Shown piece by piece: positions 17,332 through 24,635 of a DNA stretch of 35,428 bases; position 1 is the stretch's first letter; the number at the start of each line of letters is the position of its first letter. The notes beneath the pieces are model-generated. The model ran no database searches, was not told where the DNA came from, and saw nothing but the letters and a program-made list of their open reading frames with translations. Both the position numbers and the translations under genes were made by a program. This stretch comes from a virus. The stretch covers positions 1 through 35,428 of IMG/VR virus record IMGVR_UViG_3300038701_000434; one strand, 5' to 3'.

Positions 17332-17723
17332 ACAGCACGCCAGAGAAGGGGCGCGAGCAGCGGGGGAAGCGCTACGTTGGCGCTCTCCCGCCAATGGGTC
17401 CAATGCCGGAGCTGATCGAGTACTTGTTCGCGGCAGGGCCGGTCGAGCATTCTGGGATGGGCTTTTCGCCGCTATCTTGGGCGGAATTGCTGGCGTGGCA
17501 AGACGCCGTGGGCATCAGTCTTGACCCGTTCGAGGCGCAGGCTGTGAGGGATTTATCACTGGCTTACGTCGACCAATACGAACGCGGCAAAGCGGCGACT
17601 TGTCCACCGCCGTGGGTCGATCCGGATCACGTCGACCGGGAAGGCGTCGGCAAGAAAATACTGAGTCAGTTCAGGGCGTTCCAGCAGCGCCGTCAGCAGC
17701 AGAGAGGTGTCCGCCGTGGCTGA
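16909..17723 (+). CDS. Tail assembly chaperone, frameshifted long form (gpGT-like)
   Basis: Product of -1 slippage at 17271-17277: zero-frame codons from 16909 to 17277, then the -1 frame from base 17277 (YRDGVEAAKVWVRF) to the TGA at 17721-17723, about 271 aa in all. The -1 frame is open right from the slip site and has no convincing start or ribosome binding site of its own before 17394, as expected of a T domain reached only by frameshifting. The C-terminal part ends in a Gln/Arg-rich helix and overlaps the tape measure start. In lambda the T domain recruits the tape measure and tube protein. Confidence 0.78.
17271..17277 (+). other. Programmed -1 frameshift site TTTTTTT
   Basis: A run of seven T, in zero frame as TCT TTT TTT ATC, is preceded by C and fits the X-XXY-YYZ slippery pattern. 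Slipping back one base joins gpG to the open -1 frame that continues to 17723. GC-rich pairing downstream (17284-17340) could supply a stimulator, but I did not find an obvious simple stem. Confidence 0.78.
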
Positions 17724-20700
17724 TCTAGGCAATGTAAGAATCAAGGCGGATACCACCGAGATCGTCAAAGCCGCCAAAGACATTGACGGGATGGCGAAAG
17801 CTGCGGGACGCGCTCGGGACAAGCTGGGCCGGTTTATCCCGGCGACTGACCGAGCATCCGATAGCGCAGACGGACTGAATCGCTCGACTGGCAAAGCGCG
17901 TGACTCTCTGGGCCGGTTCGTCGGCACTGGCGATAAAGCAACCCGCACCTCTGCAAAGCTCGGAAACGAGTTGGACGTTCTCCGCAATGCGTTCGCATCG
18001 CTCGGAGTCGCGCTGGTCGTGCGCGAAATGGCACAGATGACGATGCAGATGCAGGCGATGGAAAACGTCCTGAAAGTGGCGACGGGTTCCAGCGCCGGTG
18101 CTGCTGCGGAAATGCAATTTCTCCGCGAAGAAGCCGACCGGCTGGGCTTCAATCTGCAAGTGGTCGGCAAGCAATTCGGGCAGTTCGCCGCTGCGGCCAA
18201 GGGCACGGCGCTGGAAGGCCAGGCTGCACGCGAGGTGTTCACCGCCGTTGCCGAAGCGTCGCGGGCACTGGGCCTGTCGTCTGAGCAGACAGAAGGCGCA
18301 CTGAACGCGCTCCAGCAGATGATCAGCAAAGGCAACGTTCAAGCGGAAGAACTGCGTGGCCAGCTCGGTGAGCGCATTCCCGGCGCTTTCAACATGGCCG
18401 CTCGCGCCATGGGCGTCACCACCCAAGAACTCAACAAGATGCTGGAGCAGGGCGAGGTCTTGGCCGAGGACCTGCTGCCGAAGCTGGCGGTCGAAATGCG
18501 GACAGCCTTCGGCCAAGGCGCACAGGATGCGGCGGGTAGCCTGGCGGCTGAAATCGGGCGGTTTCAAACCCAGATGTTTGAACTCGGCGCTGGCGTCGGT
18601 ACGCAGCTACTGCCGGAGATGACCGCTTTCGTCAAGCTGATGACGGACTTGCTACGGATCGCTGCGGACAATACCGAGGTCATCGGCAACCTTGTGCGCG
18701 TCGTCGGGCTGCTGGTGGCGATGAATCTGGTCGGCTGGGCAAGCCGTGGCGCGGTGGCGCTTGGGCAACTGGCGCTCGGCCTGCGTGGTGCGGCGGCTGG
18801 TGCGACGCTGCTGTCTCGCGGGCTGACCATTCTCGGTGGTCCGGTCGGGATCATCTTCGGCGTTGCTGCCGCTACGCTCATGCTTTCCGACCGGTTCCGC
18901 GAGTCGAGCGAGATGGCCAAGACCTACGCTGGCGGGATCGACGCGCTCCGCCAGCGATTCGACGAACTCGGCGAATCACAGCGCGAATTGATGCGGCTGG
19001 AAGTGTCCGACGAACTGCGGAAAGAACAGCAGCAGTTCGAGGCGTTGCAGCGCCAGATTGCCACTACCGGGCAAGAAATCTTCAATCTGGCGCAGCAAGG
19101 CGGCGGTGTCGATCCGGTTACGGGTCAGAGCCTGTCGGCGCTGGAGCGCCAGATGGTCGAATTGAACGCCGCTGCCGAGCAGTCTGCGGGCAAAGTGGAG
19201 GAGCTTCAGCGGTTCCTTGATGACACTGCCGAATCCGCAGACAGAGCAGCAGGCGCGACGCAGGCCGCAGCAAATGCGACAACCGAACTGAGCGACGCCG
19301 AGAAGAAGCTTGCGGAGGCGCGTGGTCGATTTAATCAGACCATGATGGACGCACAGCAGAACCTCGCCGACGAACGGGCGCTAACTGCCGCGCTGGCTGA
19401 GTCGGAAGAAGCCTACCGCCGTCTGTCCGCAGAACAGCGGATCAATGCGACTGTGCGCCAGCAGATCAACGCGCTGGCTGAGGCTGGTGCGACGAATCTG
19501 GAAGAAGAAGCGCAGGCGCTCACGCAGTTGCTGCAACTGCAATTGCGCGAGATCGAGACGCAGCAGCGGCTGCGCGACCAAGCGAGCCGAGAGCAGCAGG
19601 TAGCGTCCGACCTCGACGCGCTCCGCGTCTCGCTCCAGCAGATCAGTCCAGAAGCGAAGGAGTACGCCGAAAGCATCCAGACGATCACGCAGGCTTTCGA
19701 GACCGGCGCGATTGCGACGCAGGCCGAGTTCGACGCCATCCTCGGGCAGTTGAAAGACCGGTTCAACGAAGCGACAGCACAGGCCGATCCGTTCTCCGAC
19801 GCTTGGGGTTCGGCGATGTCGTCGCTGGAGTCGGCGTTCACCGACTTCATCATGAACGGGCTGGATGACTTCGACTCCTTCGCCGATGCGGTCATGGGCA
19901 TCACGAAGCGGCTGGTCGCCGAGATCATTACCGAGTTTGCCAAGGCGCAGATCGGCAAGGTTCTGGGCAATGTGATCGGTGGTGGGACTGGCGGCGGATC
20001 AATCGGCGGTCAAGTCCTCGGCTCGGTCGCTGGCGAGGGACTGAAGAATCTGCTGGGCTTCGGCGCACCGGCTGCTGCCGCAGCACCAGCGGCTTCGGCA
20101 TTTGCCGCACCAAGCATTCCGATGTTCGGCGGTGCCACGTCAATCGCTGGTGCTGGTACCGCTGCCGCCAGCGGCGGGATCATGTCCAGCCTGGCTGCTG
20201 CCGCTGGACCGATCGCGCTCGGTATTGGCGCTTTCGCGCTGCTGGGCGGGCTGTTTGGCGGGTCGAAGAAGCGCCAGCAAGAGAAAGCACAGCGGGATCA
20301 AATCCTAGCGCGTGAGGAAGAACTGCGCGTGCAGCTTGCCAGCATCGACGGGCTGGAAGACCTCACGCTCCAGCGCGAGCGCGAGCTGGAGAAACTGTCA
20401 CCGGCGAACCGCGAGATTCAGGAGCGGGTGTATGCGCTGGAGGATGAAATCCGAATTACCCGCGAGCGGCGGTCACTGGAAGAGCGAGCGTTCCGCCTGA
20501 TCGGTGATACCGCGTCGCTCCGGCGGCGGGAGCTGGCGCAGACCGAGGAAGTGAACCGCGGAATCCTGCGCTACATCTACGCCGTCGAGGATGCACAGGA
20601 GCGCGTATCAGCGGCTCAGGACAAAGTGTCCCAGGCAGAACAGCGCGTCACGCGAGCTTTCGATGCTGTGCGTCGTGCAGTCGAGGCGCAGGAAGCGCAA

Positions 20701-21810
20701 TTGCTCGACCAGCGGCGGGAGATCGAAGACCGGCAGCGCGAGCTTGACCAGCAGTTCACCACGCGCATCGACATGCTCGACTCCGCGCTGGAGCGGATGC
20801 GGTCGAATCTTGGCAGCGCAATGACGCCATTCGCCGAGCGCGAGATGGCGAAGGCGGTGCTGGATGTCGTGCTGGCGTCCGGCATCAATGCCGTGGACGA
20901 GGATACCCTGCGCCAGGCGCTTGATGTGGTGGCGTCGCCGAGCGAGTCGCTGTTCGCTACCTTCCAAGACTATGCCCGCGAGTTCGTCAAGACGCAGAAC
21001 ACATTGGAGGCGATCAAGGCTGACGCCGAGCAGTCGCTTTCTGTGGAAGAGAAACTAGCAGCCGAGCAAATTGCCAAGCTTGACCAACAGATCGACCTCG
21101 GGCGGCAGCAACTGGAAGCCGCACAGCGACAAGTCGACGCGGCGTTCGGCATCGACAACAGCGTCAAGTCAGTCGAGGAAGCCATGCGCGGACTCACCGC
21201 CGCTATCGGCGGGCTGGCGAGCGCACGCGGCGGGCTGGCGTCTGCCGAGTCGGCATTGGCAAGCCTGATCTCCCGAGGGCCGCCTGCTGGCGCTCCGATT
21301 GCCAGTGCACCGGCTGGGCCGTCTGGTCCTGCGGTCAGCCAGCTACAGGCTGCCGGTCGGCTTGCTGTGCGTGGGCCGCTGACGCTGGGCGAGGAAAACA
21401 CTTGGCGGTCGGAAGAACTGAAGCAACTTCGAGCAGTCGGCCTGAATCTCGGCTCGCGCAGCTACGCCAGCCGCACGCAGATCGAAAGCCTACGCCAGCA
21501 GGTGCGATCTGCGGGCGGTATGCCTTCTTTCGCCGATGGCGGTATGCACATGGGCGGTATGCGCCTGGTCGGCGAGCGCGGGCCGGAACTGGAAGCCACA
21601 GGGCCGAGTCGAATCCTGAGCAACCGCGATCTGATGAGCGCGATTGGCGGTGGCGGTTCGGCGGAGTCCATGGAAGCGATCCGCTCCGAGATTCGCGGAC
21701 TGCGCTCTGAACTCGCCCGGACACAGTACAAGATCGAGCGAAACACCCGCCGTACCAGTGATACACTGACCATCTGGGATGCTGACGGGCTGCCAGCGGA
21801 GCGGACATGA
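17716..21810 (+). CDS. Tail tape measure protein
   Basis: Sets tail length and is ejected with DNA; 1364 aa. Residues 1-270 match the tape-measure N-terminal domain (NELDVLRNAFASLGVALVV, LGFNLQVVGKQFGQFAAAAKG, GLSSEQTEGALNALQQMISKG, ELRGQLGERIPGA). Long coiled coils rich in Gln, Glu and Arg occupy about 400-650 and 850-1200, with hydrophobic Ala/Gly-rich segments near 300-400 and 750-860 that could contact the membrane. The C-terminus has GGMHMGGMRLVGERGPELEA, common in these proteins. GTG 17716 is preferred, with GAGG at 17704-17707; GTG 17707 overlaps that site. By the usual 1.5 angstrom per residue, the tail would be about 200 nm (inference). Confidence 0.92.
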   Translation: MADLGNVRIKADTTEIVKAAKDIDGMAKAAGRARDKLGRFIPATDRASDSADGLNRSTGKARDSLGRFVGTGDKATRTSAKLGNELDVLRNAFASLGVALVVREMAQMTMQMQAMENVLKVATGSSAGAAAEMQFLREEADRLGFNLQVVGKQFGQFAAAAKGTALEGQAAREVFTAVAEASRALGLSSEQTEGALNALQQMISKGNVQAEELRGQLGERIPGAFNMAARAMGVTTQELNKMLEQGEVLAEDLLPKLAVEMRTAFGQGAQDAAGSLAAEIGRFQTQMFELGAGVGTQLLPEMTAFVKLMTDLLRIAADNTEVIGNLVRVVGLLVAMNLVGWASRGAVALGQLALGLRGAAAGATLLSRGLTILGGPVGIIFGVAAATLMLSDRFRESSEMAKTYAGGIDALRQRFDELGESQRELMRLEVSDELRKEQQQFEALQRQIATTGQEIFNLAQQGGGVDPVTGQSLSALERQMVELNAAAEQSAGKVEELQRFLDDTAESADRAAGATQAAANATTELSDAEKKLAEARGRFNQTMMDAQQNLADERALTAALAESEEAYRRLSAEQRINATVRQQINALAEAGATNLEEEAQALTQLLQLQLREIETQQRLRDQASREQQVASDLDALRVSLQQISPEAKEYAESIQTITQAFETGAIATQAEFDAILGQLKDRFNEATAQADPFSDAWGSAMSSLESAFTDFIMNGLDDFDSFADAVMGITKRLVAEIITEFAKAQIGKVLGNVIGGGTGGGSIGGQVLGSVAGEGLKNLLGFGAPAAAAAPAASAFAAPSIPMFGGATSIAGAGTAAASGGIMSSLAAAAGPIALGIGAFALLGGLFGGSKKRQQEKAQRDQILAREEELRVQLASIDGLEDLTLQRERELEKLSPANREIQERVYALEDEIRITRERRSLEERAFRLIGDTASLRRRELAQTEEVNRGILRYIYAVEDAQERVSAAQDKVSQAEQRVTRAFDAVRRAVEAQEAQLLDQRREIEDRQRELDQQFTTRIDMLDSALERMRSNLGSAMTPFAEREMAKAVLDVVLASGINAVDEDTLRQALDVVASPSESLFATFQDYAREFVKTQNTLEAIKADAEQSLSVEEKLAAEQIAKLDQQIDLGRQQLEAAQRQVDAAFGIDNSVKSVEEAMRGLTAAIGGLASARGGLASAESALASLISRGPPAGAPIASAPAGPSGPAVSQLQAAGRLAVRGPLTLGEENTWRSEELKQLRAVGLNLGSRSYASRTQIESLRQQVRSAGGMPSFADGGMHMGGMRLVGERGPELEATGPSRILSNRDLMSAIGGGGSAESMEAIRSEIRGLRSELARTQYKIERNTRRTSDTLTIWDADGLPAERT

Positions 21811-22769
21811 TTATTATCAGACCAACGGCAGTGCCGCCGAATGACCTGAACGATCCGGATGCGGTCCTGATTGATAGCAACGTCGCCGCGACAGACGCCG
21901 GAGAAGGCGTGTGGGCGTCCGGCACGACCTATGATGAAGGCGATATTGTCAGCGTTCTCGGCGAGACTCAGCGACGCTACGAAAGCCTGACCGACTACAA
22001 TACAGGCAACAGCCCGCCGGATAGTCCGACCGAATGGCTGGACCTTGGCGCAACAAATCGCTGGCGCATGTTTGATGGCGGGGTCGACACGGCGACGGCC
22101 AACAGCGATGCGATTGAAGTCGAACTCGGCTTTGATCAATACGAGATCGTTAATAGCCTGGCGCTGTTCAATGTCCTCGGCGCTCGCATTCTGATCGATC
22201 GTTACGACGAAGACGACACCTTGGTTTACGAAGCCGAGCTGTTGATTTCGATTCAGATTCCAGAAGCGAACTGGTGGGCGTACTTCTTCGGCCAGACAAA
22301 CTTCGGCAATCCTCGCCGGGATTTGGTCGACTTGCAATTGCCGACCACATTTGGCGGACGGATGGTGATTCGCGTCGAGAGAACCGGAGCGGTCGCCGAG
22401 ATCGGGTTGCTGGTGGTCGGTCGAAAGCAGCAATTGGGCACGACGGTCTACGGCACGACAATCGGGATTGAAGACTTCAGCACCAAGGAGCGCGACACCT
22501 TCGGCAATTTTACGATTGTGGAGCGGCGCTTCATCAACAAAGCGGAATACACGATCTTCGTTCCGACGCAGGATGTCGCGGTGCTAAAACGCGCCATTGC
22601 AGACCGTCGCGCCAAGCCGACAGTTTACGTTGGAGCCGACGAAGCAAGTGCTACGCTCTCCGGCTTCCTGCATGAAGAGACCATCATTTACGGATTCCCG
22701 CGCGACTTCCAAGTTTTGCTAGTCGATGCGCGGAACAGTGAGTGCCTATTGGAGGTTGAAGGATTATGA
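21807..22769 (+). CDS. Tail-tip protein with carbohydrate-binding-like module
   Basis: A 320-residue protein directly after the tape measure, the distal-tail position. Residues 35-76 (WASGTTYDEGDIV, then an aromatic strand and SPTEWLDLG) look like a CBM5/12-type chitin/carbohydrate-binding module. The rest is beta-rich with many aromatic residues. A similar small module occurs in the next protein. G+C is lower than in neighbouring genes. It likely forms part of the tail tip or baseplate, holding or complementing the receptor-binding protein; the exact role is unknown. Confidence 0.6.
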   Translation: MIIIRPTAVPPNDLNDPDAVLIDSNVAATDAGEGVWASGTTYDEGDIVSVLGETQRRYESLTDYNTGNSPPDSPTEWLDLGATNRWRMFDGGVDTATANSDAIEVELGFDQYEIVNSLALFNVLGARILIDRYDEDDTLVYEAELLISIQIPEANWWAYFFGQTNFGNPRRDLVDLQLPTTFGGRMVIRVERTGAVAEIGLLVVGRKQQLGTTVYGTTIGIEDFSTKERDTFGNFTIVERRFINKAEYTIFVPTQDVAVLKRAIADRRAKPTVYVGADEASATLSGFLHEETIIYGFPRDFQVLLVDARNSECLLEVEGL

Positions 22770-24160
22770 GCACTGTCCCGACAATTTCAACGCTGCCGCC
22801 AGCGCCTGTGCGGACGCAGACGCCGGAAGCATTCGCCACCACAGCGGATACTTTCGTCGCATCGCTCGCAACACTGGTCAGCGAGACGAATACCACCATT
22901 GGCGCAATCAACAATGCCTTGGCTGGTGCGCTGGTGACATTCAATGCTTACCAGGGCGACTGGTCGGCAGGAACCTATGCGTCCGGGGATGTCGTCAGAA
23001 AGTCGGATGTGTTCTACATCTCGCTGACCGACAGCAACACGCAGGAGCCGCCGGATACAAATTGGCAAGCGCTCAATATCGCATCCAGCATCGACTACGA
23101 CAACAGCACGTCTGGGCTGTCAGCGACCGATGTGCAAGAGGCGATTGATGAGATTGCTGCTCCTGCCGGGCTGTTTGCAAAAGCCACGCCACGCGCTGTT
23201 GCATGGACAAAGACCGGTGCGGGCACTGCCGAAACAGCAACGGCGTTGACTCTGGAAGTCAACGGCGGGCTGGTATCTGTGTCCTCTGGCACCAGCATCT
23301 CGATGCCGTCTCTGACCGCTGGCACCGACTACGCGATCTGGTGTGCGCCGAATGGAACGCTGGAAGCTGACGCCAGTTTCACCGTCGCGCCGACAGCAAA
23401 TGGACGACTGATCGGAGGCTTTCACTACGCACCCGGTGGCAATGCGGCTGCACAGGCTGGTGGCAACACCACAGCGCAGATCAACGAGTACAGTTTCTGG
23501 GACTTGAAGTTCCGCCCATCGTGCGAAGACCCGCGAGGCATGACGCTGGTCGCTGATCACTTTTGGTCTGATATTTACCTGCTGAATACTGACCCGGACA
23601 CCAACGGCACAAGCGCCAACGACAAAACGATTGCGAATGGGAATGCTGACTACCCCATTATTCCAGATGCGTTTGGCGGTGATGGGACGACCACTTATGG
23701 GTCGTTTACATGGTTTGAAGCACAAGAGATTCTTGGCGCTTATGGCAAACGCTGCCCGACTTACGCCGAGTTCATGCAGTTGGCGTACGGTACGACTGAA
23801 GAACAGGATCGAGGCAATGACCCAGTTACAACGGGTTTTGCCACAACGAACACCGCGACAAATAATGGCGACGAGGAGTTCACCAGCAAGTGGGGCGTGA
23901 TTCAGTCCACGGGTGTTTACTATGTTTGGGGCCGTGACTTTATTGCTGATGGCACCGGCACCGGGGCATTTCAGGATATTACTGAAGGCCGCGGCGAGGT
24001 GTATACATACAGCTCAAGCGCCCGTGCGGGCCGCTTGGGTGGGCATTGTACTACTACGACTCAGGCTGGGTCTCGCTGTTCTGGTTGGAGTCTTGCGCCT
24101 TCCCTTAGCGACAGCCTCATTTCGGCCCGCGGCGTCTGTGACCACCTGATCCTTGACTGA
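22766..24160 (+). CDS. Mtd-like receptor-binding protein, DGR target type
   Basis: Tail-tip receptor-binding protein of 464 aa. Residues 1-60 are a low-complexity attachment region, about 62-103 hold a CBM5/12-like module (DWSAGTYASGDVV to TNWQALN), and about 105-125 a DYDNSTSGLSATDVQEAIDEI fibre motif. From about 240 the sequence closely follows Bordetella phage BPP-1 Mtd: SCEDPRGMTLVADHFWSDIYLL, FGGDGTTTYGSFTW, GKRCPTYAEFMQLAYGTTE, FTSKWGVIQSTGVYYVWG, and the end SARGVCDHLIL. This is the C-type-lectin fold that a DGR diversifies; the variable region would be about 418-453. No reverse transcriptase or template repeat is visible in the window, so active diversification is unproven. Confidence 0.88.
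   Translation: MSTVPTISTLPPAPVRTQTPEAFATTADTFVASLATLVSETNTTIGAINNALAGALVTFNAYQGDWSAGTYASGDVVRKSDVFYISLTDSNTQEPPDTNWQALNIASSIDYDNSTSGLSATDVQEAIDEIAAPAGLFAKATPRAVAWTKTGAGTAETATALTLEVNGGLVSVSSGTSISMPSLTAGTDYAIWCAPNGTLEADASFTVAPTANGRLIGGFHYAPGGNAAAQAGGNTTAQINEYSFWDLKFRPSCEDPRGMTLVADHFWSDIYLLNTDPDTNGTSANDKTIANGNADYPIIPDAFGGDGTTTYGSFTWFEAQEILGAYGKRCPTYAEFMQLAYGTTEEQDRGNDPVTTGFATTNTATNNGDEEFTSKWGVIQSTGVYYVWGRDFIADGTGTGAFQDITEGRGEVYTYSSSARAGRLGGHCTTTTQAGSRCSGWSLAPSLSDSLISARGVCDHLILD
24011..24157 (+). other. Putative DGR variable region with 3' homing-type end
   Basis: Codons for about residues 416-464 of the Mtd-like protein. The 3' part (24122-24157) encodes SARGVCDHLILD and is GC-rich (CGGCCCGCGGCGTC), matching the constant, initiation-of-homing end of BPP-1-type variable repeats. 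Just upstream, 16 of 28 codons (24038-24121) end in T, unlike the G/C-ending codons of most of the window, and variable-type positions (Cys438, Ser439, Gly440, Ser442, Leu443, Leu447, Asp449, Leu451, Ile452) fall where Mtd varies. The template repeat was not found. Confidence 0.6.
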
Positions 24161-24170
24161 GGTCTTACTA

Positions 24171-24635
24171 ATGAAACCAATCATCAATACCCGAAAAGAC
24201 CTTGACGCTGCCGATGCCGCGACCCGGCAAAAGTTCCTGACACATCTTGCGGGCGGGATCAACCGCTGGCGCTGGAACGGATCGGACTGGGAGCAGTGGC
24301 AGGACACCACGACACTGCGCCGCTTTGAGTACACCGTGGCTGACTTCCCCGATGCGCCGGTGCCACCTAAACCCGACTGGAACCCGGACGAGCGAGCGCT
24401 TGCACAAGCACGCGCTGCCGCGAGCCTCTCCCGAGCGCAGTTCAAACTCGCACTGCTGGAAGGCGGCTATCTGGACGCCGTGGAAGCCGCGTATCCATCG
24501 TGGCCTCGGAACGTGCAGATCATGTGGGATGACAGCTCGACGTTTGAGCGGATGCACCCGGCGCTGATCCAGCTCGGTGAGGCGATGGGCTACACGCCGG
24601 AGGAAATGGACGCGCTGTTTGGGATCGGCGCATGA
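24171..24635 (+). CDS. Small protein following the receptor-binding gene, tail-assembly type
   Basis: A 154-residue acidic protein: an N-terminal segment INRWRWNGSDWEQWQDTTTLRRFEYT, then a conserved-looking helical end SRAQFKLALLEGGYLDAVE and MHPALIQLGEAMGYTPEEMDALFG. Similar short proteins with this C-terminal helix pattern occur after tail fibre genes. It could help assemble or accompany the Mtd-like protein, but it does not resemble the Atd accessory protein of DGRs strongly enough to say so. ATG 24171 is preferred, with GAGG at 24159-24162 overlapping the previous stop. Confidence 0.55.
   Translation: MKPIINTRKDLDAADAATRQKFLTHLAGGINRWRWNGSDWEQWQDTTTLRRFEYTVADFPDAPVPPKPDWNPDERALAQARAAASLSRAQFKLALLEGGYLDAVEAAYPSWPRNVQIMWDDSSTFERMHPALIQLGEAMGYTPEEMDALFGIGA

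Follow-up and report, generated by a model that had tools for sequence, protein, structure and literature searches.

A probable fossil of retroelement-directed variation in the Mtd-type tail tip of a siphophage-like virus

The closest described system is the tropism-switching cassette of Bordetella phage BPP-1, in which mtd is followed by avd, a template repeat (TR), brt and bbp4. Directly behind the variable repeat (VR), BPP-1 has a hairpin, its 4-nt loop reading GRNA, that is needed for retrohoming; when it is deleted, homing drops to an undetectable level, and the hairpin is conserved in the diversity-generating retroelements (DGRs) of phages (PMC3240598). In cassette-deleted BPP-1, on the other hand, avd, TR and brt do function when supplied in trans (PMC3240598).

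The orphan state of Mtd is already known. Synechococcus phages S-CBS1 and S-CBS3 and Marinomonas phage P12026 have an annotated mtd tail protein, about 41% identical in amino acids to the one described here, and in S-CBS3 and P12026 no reverse transcriptase (RT) was found within +/-8 kb of mtd. S-CBS3 keeps the GRNA hairpin and P12026 an Avd-like frame behind mtd, and they thus represent other stages of loss. Recurrent loss combined with a re-supply of variants appears to be undescribed so far, and no prior description of RT-less Mtd was found in PMC3240598, PMC10743442, PMC8144416 or PMC6642488 (the subscription literature lay mostly outside this scope).

The window, by which we mean the whole stretch of DNA that was analysed, is the 35,428-nt virus record IMGVR_UViG_3300038701_000434. 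Like BPP-1, it encodes a tip with homologous sequence and fold, a VR at the 3' end of the gene and a bbp4-like gene next to it. Unlike BPP-1, it is without avd, TR, RT and target hairpin, and its tip sits on another N-terminal anchor. It also belongs to a different group of phages, its tape measure protein being of the siphophage type.

The Mtd-like protein and its anchor

The features upstream of and within the mtd-like gene are as follows.

17707-21810, + strand: tail tape measure protein, for context (PF20155, E 1.4e-29)
21807-22769, + strand: upstream tail protein (PHROG 6278, E 1.5e-65)
22766-24160, + strand: mtd-like receptor-binding (tail tip) gene, ATG start, 464 aa (open reading frame, phmmer and fold search)
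22766-23074, + strand: N-terminal anchor (residues 1-103), 74% of amino acids shared with sibling phage L115
22949-23074, + strand: possible small CBM5/12-like domain (residues 62-103), weak, fold match only
23204-23503, + strand: Mtd second domain (residues 147-246; Pfam mtd_2nd PF21916, E 8.7e-18)

The 464-residue product ends in SARGVCDHLILD. All solved Mtd variants match its residues 136-464 in phmmer (E 1.9e-88 to 4e-86, the best being Mtd 1yu4), with about 49% amino acid identity to BPP-1 Mtd over the same residues, and PHROG 11262, a tail protein, matches with an E of 2e-107. The homology thus covers both the pyramid body and the lectin domain of Mtd. An earlier note, made from the sequence alone, had the protein following Mtd from about residue 240; phmmer, Pfam and PHROG bear out the homology, but it begins near residue 136. 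The note had also proposed a fold prediction as a check. The AlphaFold2 model, built on a 21-sequence alignment, is of moderate confidence (mean pLDDT 62), and the predicted structure appears Mtd-like, with the C-type-lectin fold: in Foldseek, five Mtd structures are the sole matches below E 0.001 (best 6e-27, to 1yu1). By its homology to Mtd, the protein would form a trimer at the tip of the tail and bind the host receptor there.

The anchor is specific to these phages. In the 39 kb sibling phage L115 (IMGVR_UViG_3300017989_000039), the genes for replication and head and some of those for the tail are 87-90% identical to the window in nucleotides, and the L115 receptor protein shares residues 1-103. 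Beyond these residues, however, the L115 protein is different, having a collar-like tip (L115:10333-11148) where Mtd would be. Since the anchor is common to both while the tips differ, these phages can exchange the tip as a module. The same combination of anchor and Mtd as in the window is found in L002, the closest syntenic Mtd-bearing contig, which is syntenic over 17761-24100 and ends inside the VR, short of the RT position. We read the protein as a Mtd tip of the Bordetella type joined to a phage-specific N-terminal anchor, most probably at the tail tip of a siphophage-like virus.

A carbohydrate-binding module had also been ascribed to this protein, but it is not established. There is no Pfam carbohydrate-binding module on it at E<1, a PDB search with its N-terminal 134 residues gave no match, and the N-terminal domain of the model resembles the C-terminal module of chitinase B with an E of 0.46 (40 residues, rmsd 0.9). 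A weak CBM_5_12 match lies on the neighbouring product of 21807-22769 (residues 36-77; Pfam E 0.0017, below the curated cut-off).

The variable repeat and the empty site behind mtd

Relatives were collected as 80 Mtd-bearing contigs from a scan of IMG/VR, with more found through other window genes and through a motif of 25 nt that closes the VR on its 3' side. The features at the 3' end of mtd are as follows.

24020-24137, + strand: VR, matching the L001 TR with adenine-directed differences
24134-24158, + strand: IMH-like 3' end of the VR; the same 25 nt occur in 11 IMG/VR contigs (exact scan of the collection)
24161-24170, + strand: empty site, 10 nt from the mtd stop to the next ATG, from alignment to L001/L098; hairpin absent
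24171-24635, + strand: tail-fibre-chaperone-like gene, in the position of BPP-1 bbp4 (PHROG 6034)

The closest Mtd relatives, L001 (IMGVR_UViG_3300029258_000628) and L098 (3300017960_000226), both bear a DGR and come from two metagenomes. Their mtd 3' region is 82-84% identical to that of the window in nucleotides, and the chaperone-like gene behind their RT is 93% identical in amino acids (84% in nucleotides for L001, over 24180-24625). Both have the order mtd, hairpin, avd, TR, RT and chaperone-like gene. In the window, the hairpin, avd, TR and RT, together about 1.6 kb, are absent precisely at 24161-24170: the mtd stop is at 24158-24160, and the ATG of the chaperone-like gene follows at 24171, 10 nt past the stop, with no Avd at the locus. 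A GAGG Shine-Dalgarno-like motif of the chaperone-like gene overlaps the mtd stop. L001 and L098 have kept the whole machinery; their RT proteins are 100% identical and their TRs the same, whereas their VRs differ, so that their DGR must be active now or have been so recently. (In L001, an 8-nt insertion at L001:8985-8995 breaks the mtd frame, either by assembly error or because this is a dying copy.)

Neither an RT nor a TR was found anywhere in the window. The whole 35,428-base record has no match to RVT_1, tblastn for Brt-like sequence found nothing, and a DGR-aware scan of both strands, in which mismatches at template adenines were forgiven, returned no second copy of the VR; even the best non-self 60-mers were mismatched at 15 or more positions other than adenines. 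The earlier note had reported both absences, of an RT-like protein on either strand and of a second copy of the 3' repeat, and both were upheld. It had also taken the 3' repeat to be of the DGR type, which the comparison with the L001 TR confirms. The window VR resembles the product of a TR of the L001/L098 kind: compared to the L001 TR, 17 of 28 adenines are changed but only 8 of 90 other sites (Fisher p 6.8e-8). For comparison, the L001 TR differs from its own VR at 15/28 adenines and 4/90 others, and from the L098 VR at 16/28 and 1/90. With the TR of L005 as the reference, the signal in the window VR is weaker (18/27 vs 25/80, p 0.001), as expected since L005 is more distant from the window. 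As judged from the sequence, these adenine-directed differences would record past mutagenic retrohoming rather than present activity.

Outside the VR, the window Mtd is under purifying selection, with a dN/dS of 0.053 (dS 0.83) between window and L001 mtd, while within the VR pN exceeds pS (0.22 against 0.14). The low VR pS might suggest a VR younger than the mtd body, or recently imported. This was rejected, as third positions of the VR are slow in all comparisons so distant: the window-L001 divergence of 0.135 falls within the 5-95% range of 0.12-0.30 for pairs of similar distance (median 0.21).

The target site is missing as well. Requiring a GRNA loop and at least 4 Watson-Crick pairs at the mtd stop, a hairpin was found in 42 of 46 RT-bearing Mtd loci and in none of the 16 direct mtd-chaperone junctions, the window included, against a shuffled background of 1.8%. 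DNA folding likewise gives the hairpin in L001 and BPP-1 but not in the window. A variant hairpin, CGAGC-GRNA-GCGAG, whose stem contains two tandem G-A mismatches and whose outer pairs vary between loci (G-C or A-T), occurs at L005:4724, L037:2251, L057:4228, L062:8250, L077:9213 and L079:1706 (positions of the mtd stops).

What, then, is the window mtd? Very probably, it encodes a receptor binder with a fossil VR, once written by a DGR, that has lost cassette and hairpin and is now fixed under purifying selection. In the past, an Mtd-type DGR would have written the 3' VR. The whole avd-TR-RT cassette would then have been lost, and the target-site hairpin with it, either in the window lineage or in whatever donated the module, through deletion or recombination in the stretch from mtd to the chaperone-like gene; this loss may predate the entry of the mtd-chaperone module into the window lineage. 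Mtd would now be a fixed receptor binder that can no longer be rewritten in place, its VR presumably changing only through recombination with the mtd of cassette-bearing phages, to judge from related RT-less groups. Counting against loss of the cassette, the window is one metagenome assembly, and the nearest RT-bearing relatives are only 82% identical to it in mtd, so that the deletion is inferred from relatives that are less than near-identical, one of which, L001, has a frame-broken mtd itself. The earlier note had left three options, namely an RT and template outside the window, action from the host genome, or a frozen target. The last is favoured, because the cassette is absent at the exact site, the hairpin is absent, and little of the genome is left by synteny (see below); the first two are unlikely.

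Other explanations for the missing cassette

Could the VR still be diversified in trans, by the DGR of a host or a co-resident prophage? The trans complementation of cassette-deleted BPP-1 (PMC3240598) provides a precedent, and some RT-less relatives that have one deletion in common differ in adenine-directed VRs. However, the window is without the hairpin whose deletion abolished homing in BPP-1, and an RT provided by host or prophage should therefore fail to rewrite its VR, by extrapolation from that phage. In the best-tested group of RT-less relatives, moreover, recombination accounts for the VR diversity (see below). We consider trans action quite improbable. (The only match among genome contigs, from Thiocystis violacea, has a truncated RT behind mtd; it was considered as a hint to the host, but is too distant.)

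That the cassette lies in the window phage but outside the assembled window is very unlikely. The record is classed as linear, without end repeats, and is thus formally incomplete. Its ends, however, align to the complete 34.8 kb Idiomarinaceae phage 1N2-2 (L206) only about 1.4 kb apart, at 18557 and about 20000, so that by synteny only about 1.4 kb of the genome is outside the window, less than the cassette of about 1.6 kb. In 1N2-2, this interval holds recombination genes: it contains the end of the gene for an ssDNA-annealing protein, a hypothetical and a Sak4-like gene, and a regulator. The RT follows mtd at a distance of 0.6-0.7 kb in 46 RT-bearing relatives, and in the window that place is taken by the chaperone-like gene, a gene type that is found 3' of the RT in nearly all RT-bearing loci with a long enough contig, and in BPP-1 (bbp4). 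An unlinked RT in the unseen part of the genome is also unlikely, and RVT_1 was absent from L115 and from 25 other contigs of RT-less or RT-remnant relatives or close kin.

It is scarcely to be believed that the window mtd was never linked to a DGR, i.e., that a fixed Mtd tip is the older state and the relatives gained their cassettes. In favour of such gains, RT status shifts often on a tree built from 94 Mtd bodies, from which the VR was left out: about 22 changes are needed overall, or at least 18 when the well-supported branches of the RT-less group are counted (L002, whose long branch is a wrong-frame artefact, was left out of this count). Such counts are blind to the direction of change, gain or loss. 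What points to loss are the adenine-directed scars, one of which the window VR bears, and the remnants of an RT that other RT-less relatives still have behind mtd: tblastn found them in L007, L026, L036, L193, L199 and L205, and the one in L068 was read by eye from the sequence after the stop. On the tree, the window is flanked on either side by RT-bearing neighbours and shares a 100/100 clade with L001 and L005, which both bear an RT, and this makes loss the simpler reading. Two deletions can be delimited against near-identical contigs: 1,373 bp in L026/L036 compared to L024, with a 6-bp microhomology (AAATTA), and 1,332 bp in L199/L205 compared to L200, with a 3-bp microhomology (GAA). In both, the start of avd is fused to the end of the RT. 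RT-less Mtd genes are common among relatives of the window. (One bacterial mtd, at L193:10001-11400 of Thiocystis violacea DSM 207, NZ_NRRG01000038.1, has kept the hairpin, with only the last RT residues behind it.)

An assembler that dropped or collapsed the cassette is hardly a credible source of the junction either: VR/TR repeats do disturb assembly, and six contigs (L002, L003, L048, L049, L055 and L065) end inside the VR, but a VR/TR collapse would leave behind the repeat an RT that is absent too, the same direct junction occurs in 15 further contigs, and the chaperone-like gene has its own GAGG motif at the mtd stop. Contig ends within the VR are expected if VR/TR repeats or hypervariation break assemblies, and are possibly an indirect sign of an active DGR.

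One junction, different variable repeats

Some groups of RT-less contigs have the same junction but different VRs: L012/L025/L029/L070, L066/L080, L199/L205 and the more diverged L017/L033. Each of these VRs is adenine-directed relative to the TR of a close RT-bearing relative. The first group, with mtd stops at L012:10957, L025:3938, L029:1473 and L070:5775, has one junction and four different adenine-directed VRs. Its downstream gene forms one clade (90/98), whereas a single clade for the mtd core is rejected (AU p 0.008), and the outer flanks of the contigs are unrelated. Thus, mtd and VR have recombined between RT-bearing and RT-less phages, onto an RT-less junction.

In L199/L205, the mtd body is 99.9% identical to that of L200 and the hairpin is kept, but the VRs differ; trans action from intact siblings and recombination are both candidate causes. 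In L066 and L080 (mtd stops at L066:3141 and L080:1932), the mtd body shares 99% identity with the RT-bearing L052 group. Its last codons, however, give CSHYQSD in place of CDHLQLD, and the gene that comes next is unrelated, from which it follows that both the 3' end of the VR and the target site were replaced.

Why would phages keep a target without the machine? The Mtd family has lost the cassette repeatedly, and sometimes the target site too, while the protein is still selected, so that one can ask when directed hypervariation pays compared to a fixed choice of receptor. The groups with one junction and different VRs suggest that variation made by DGRs reaches phages without them, an ecological role that would be new for these elements. 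More tentatively, RT-less Mtd phages, the window included, may perhaps live off DGR-bearing phages by importing fresh tips through mtd recombination, although we would not yet call this probable. If it is true, a single DGR population supplies many more phages, themselves lacking the machine, with variable receptors. The RT is the usual means of finding DGRs, and targets without one consequently go uncounted. The window Mtd itself is an ordinary member of its family; what deserves to be followed is the recurrent loss, with the target site lost alongside, and the re-supply of variants through recombination.

Identical VRs also occur among RT-less contigs, in L040/L041, L059/L063, L031/L032 and L071/L072/L074/L075, which may be near-identical genomes. 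L071, L072, L074 and L075 each have 2-3 tandem Mtd-like genes per phage contig, all RT-less, and their VRs are identical across the four.
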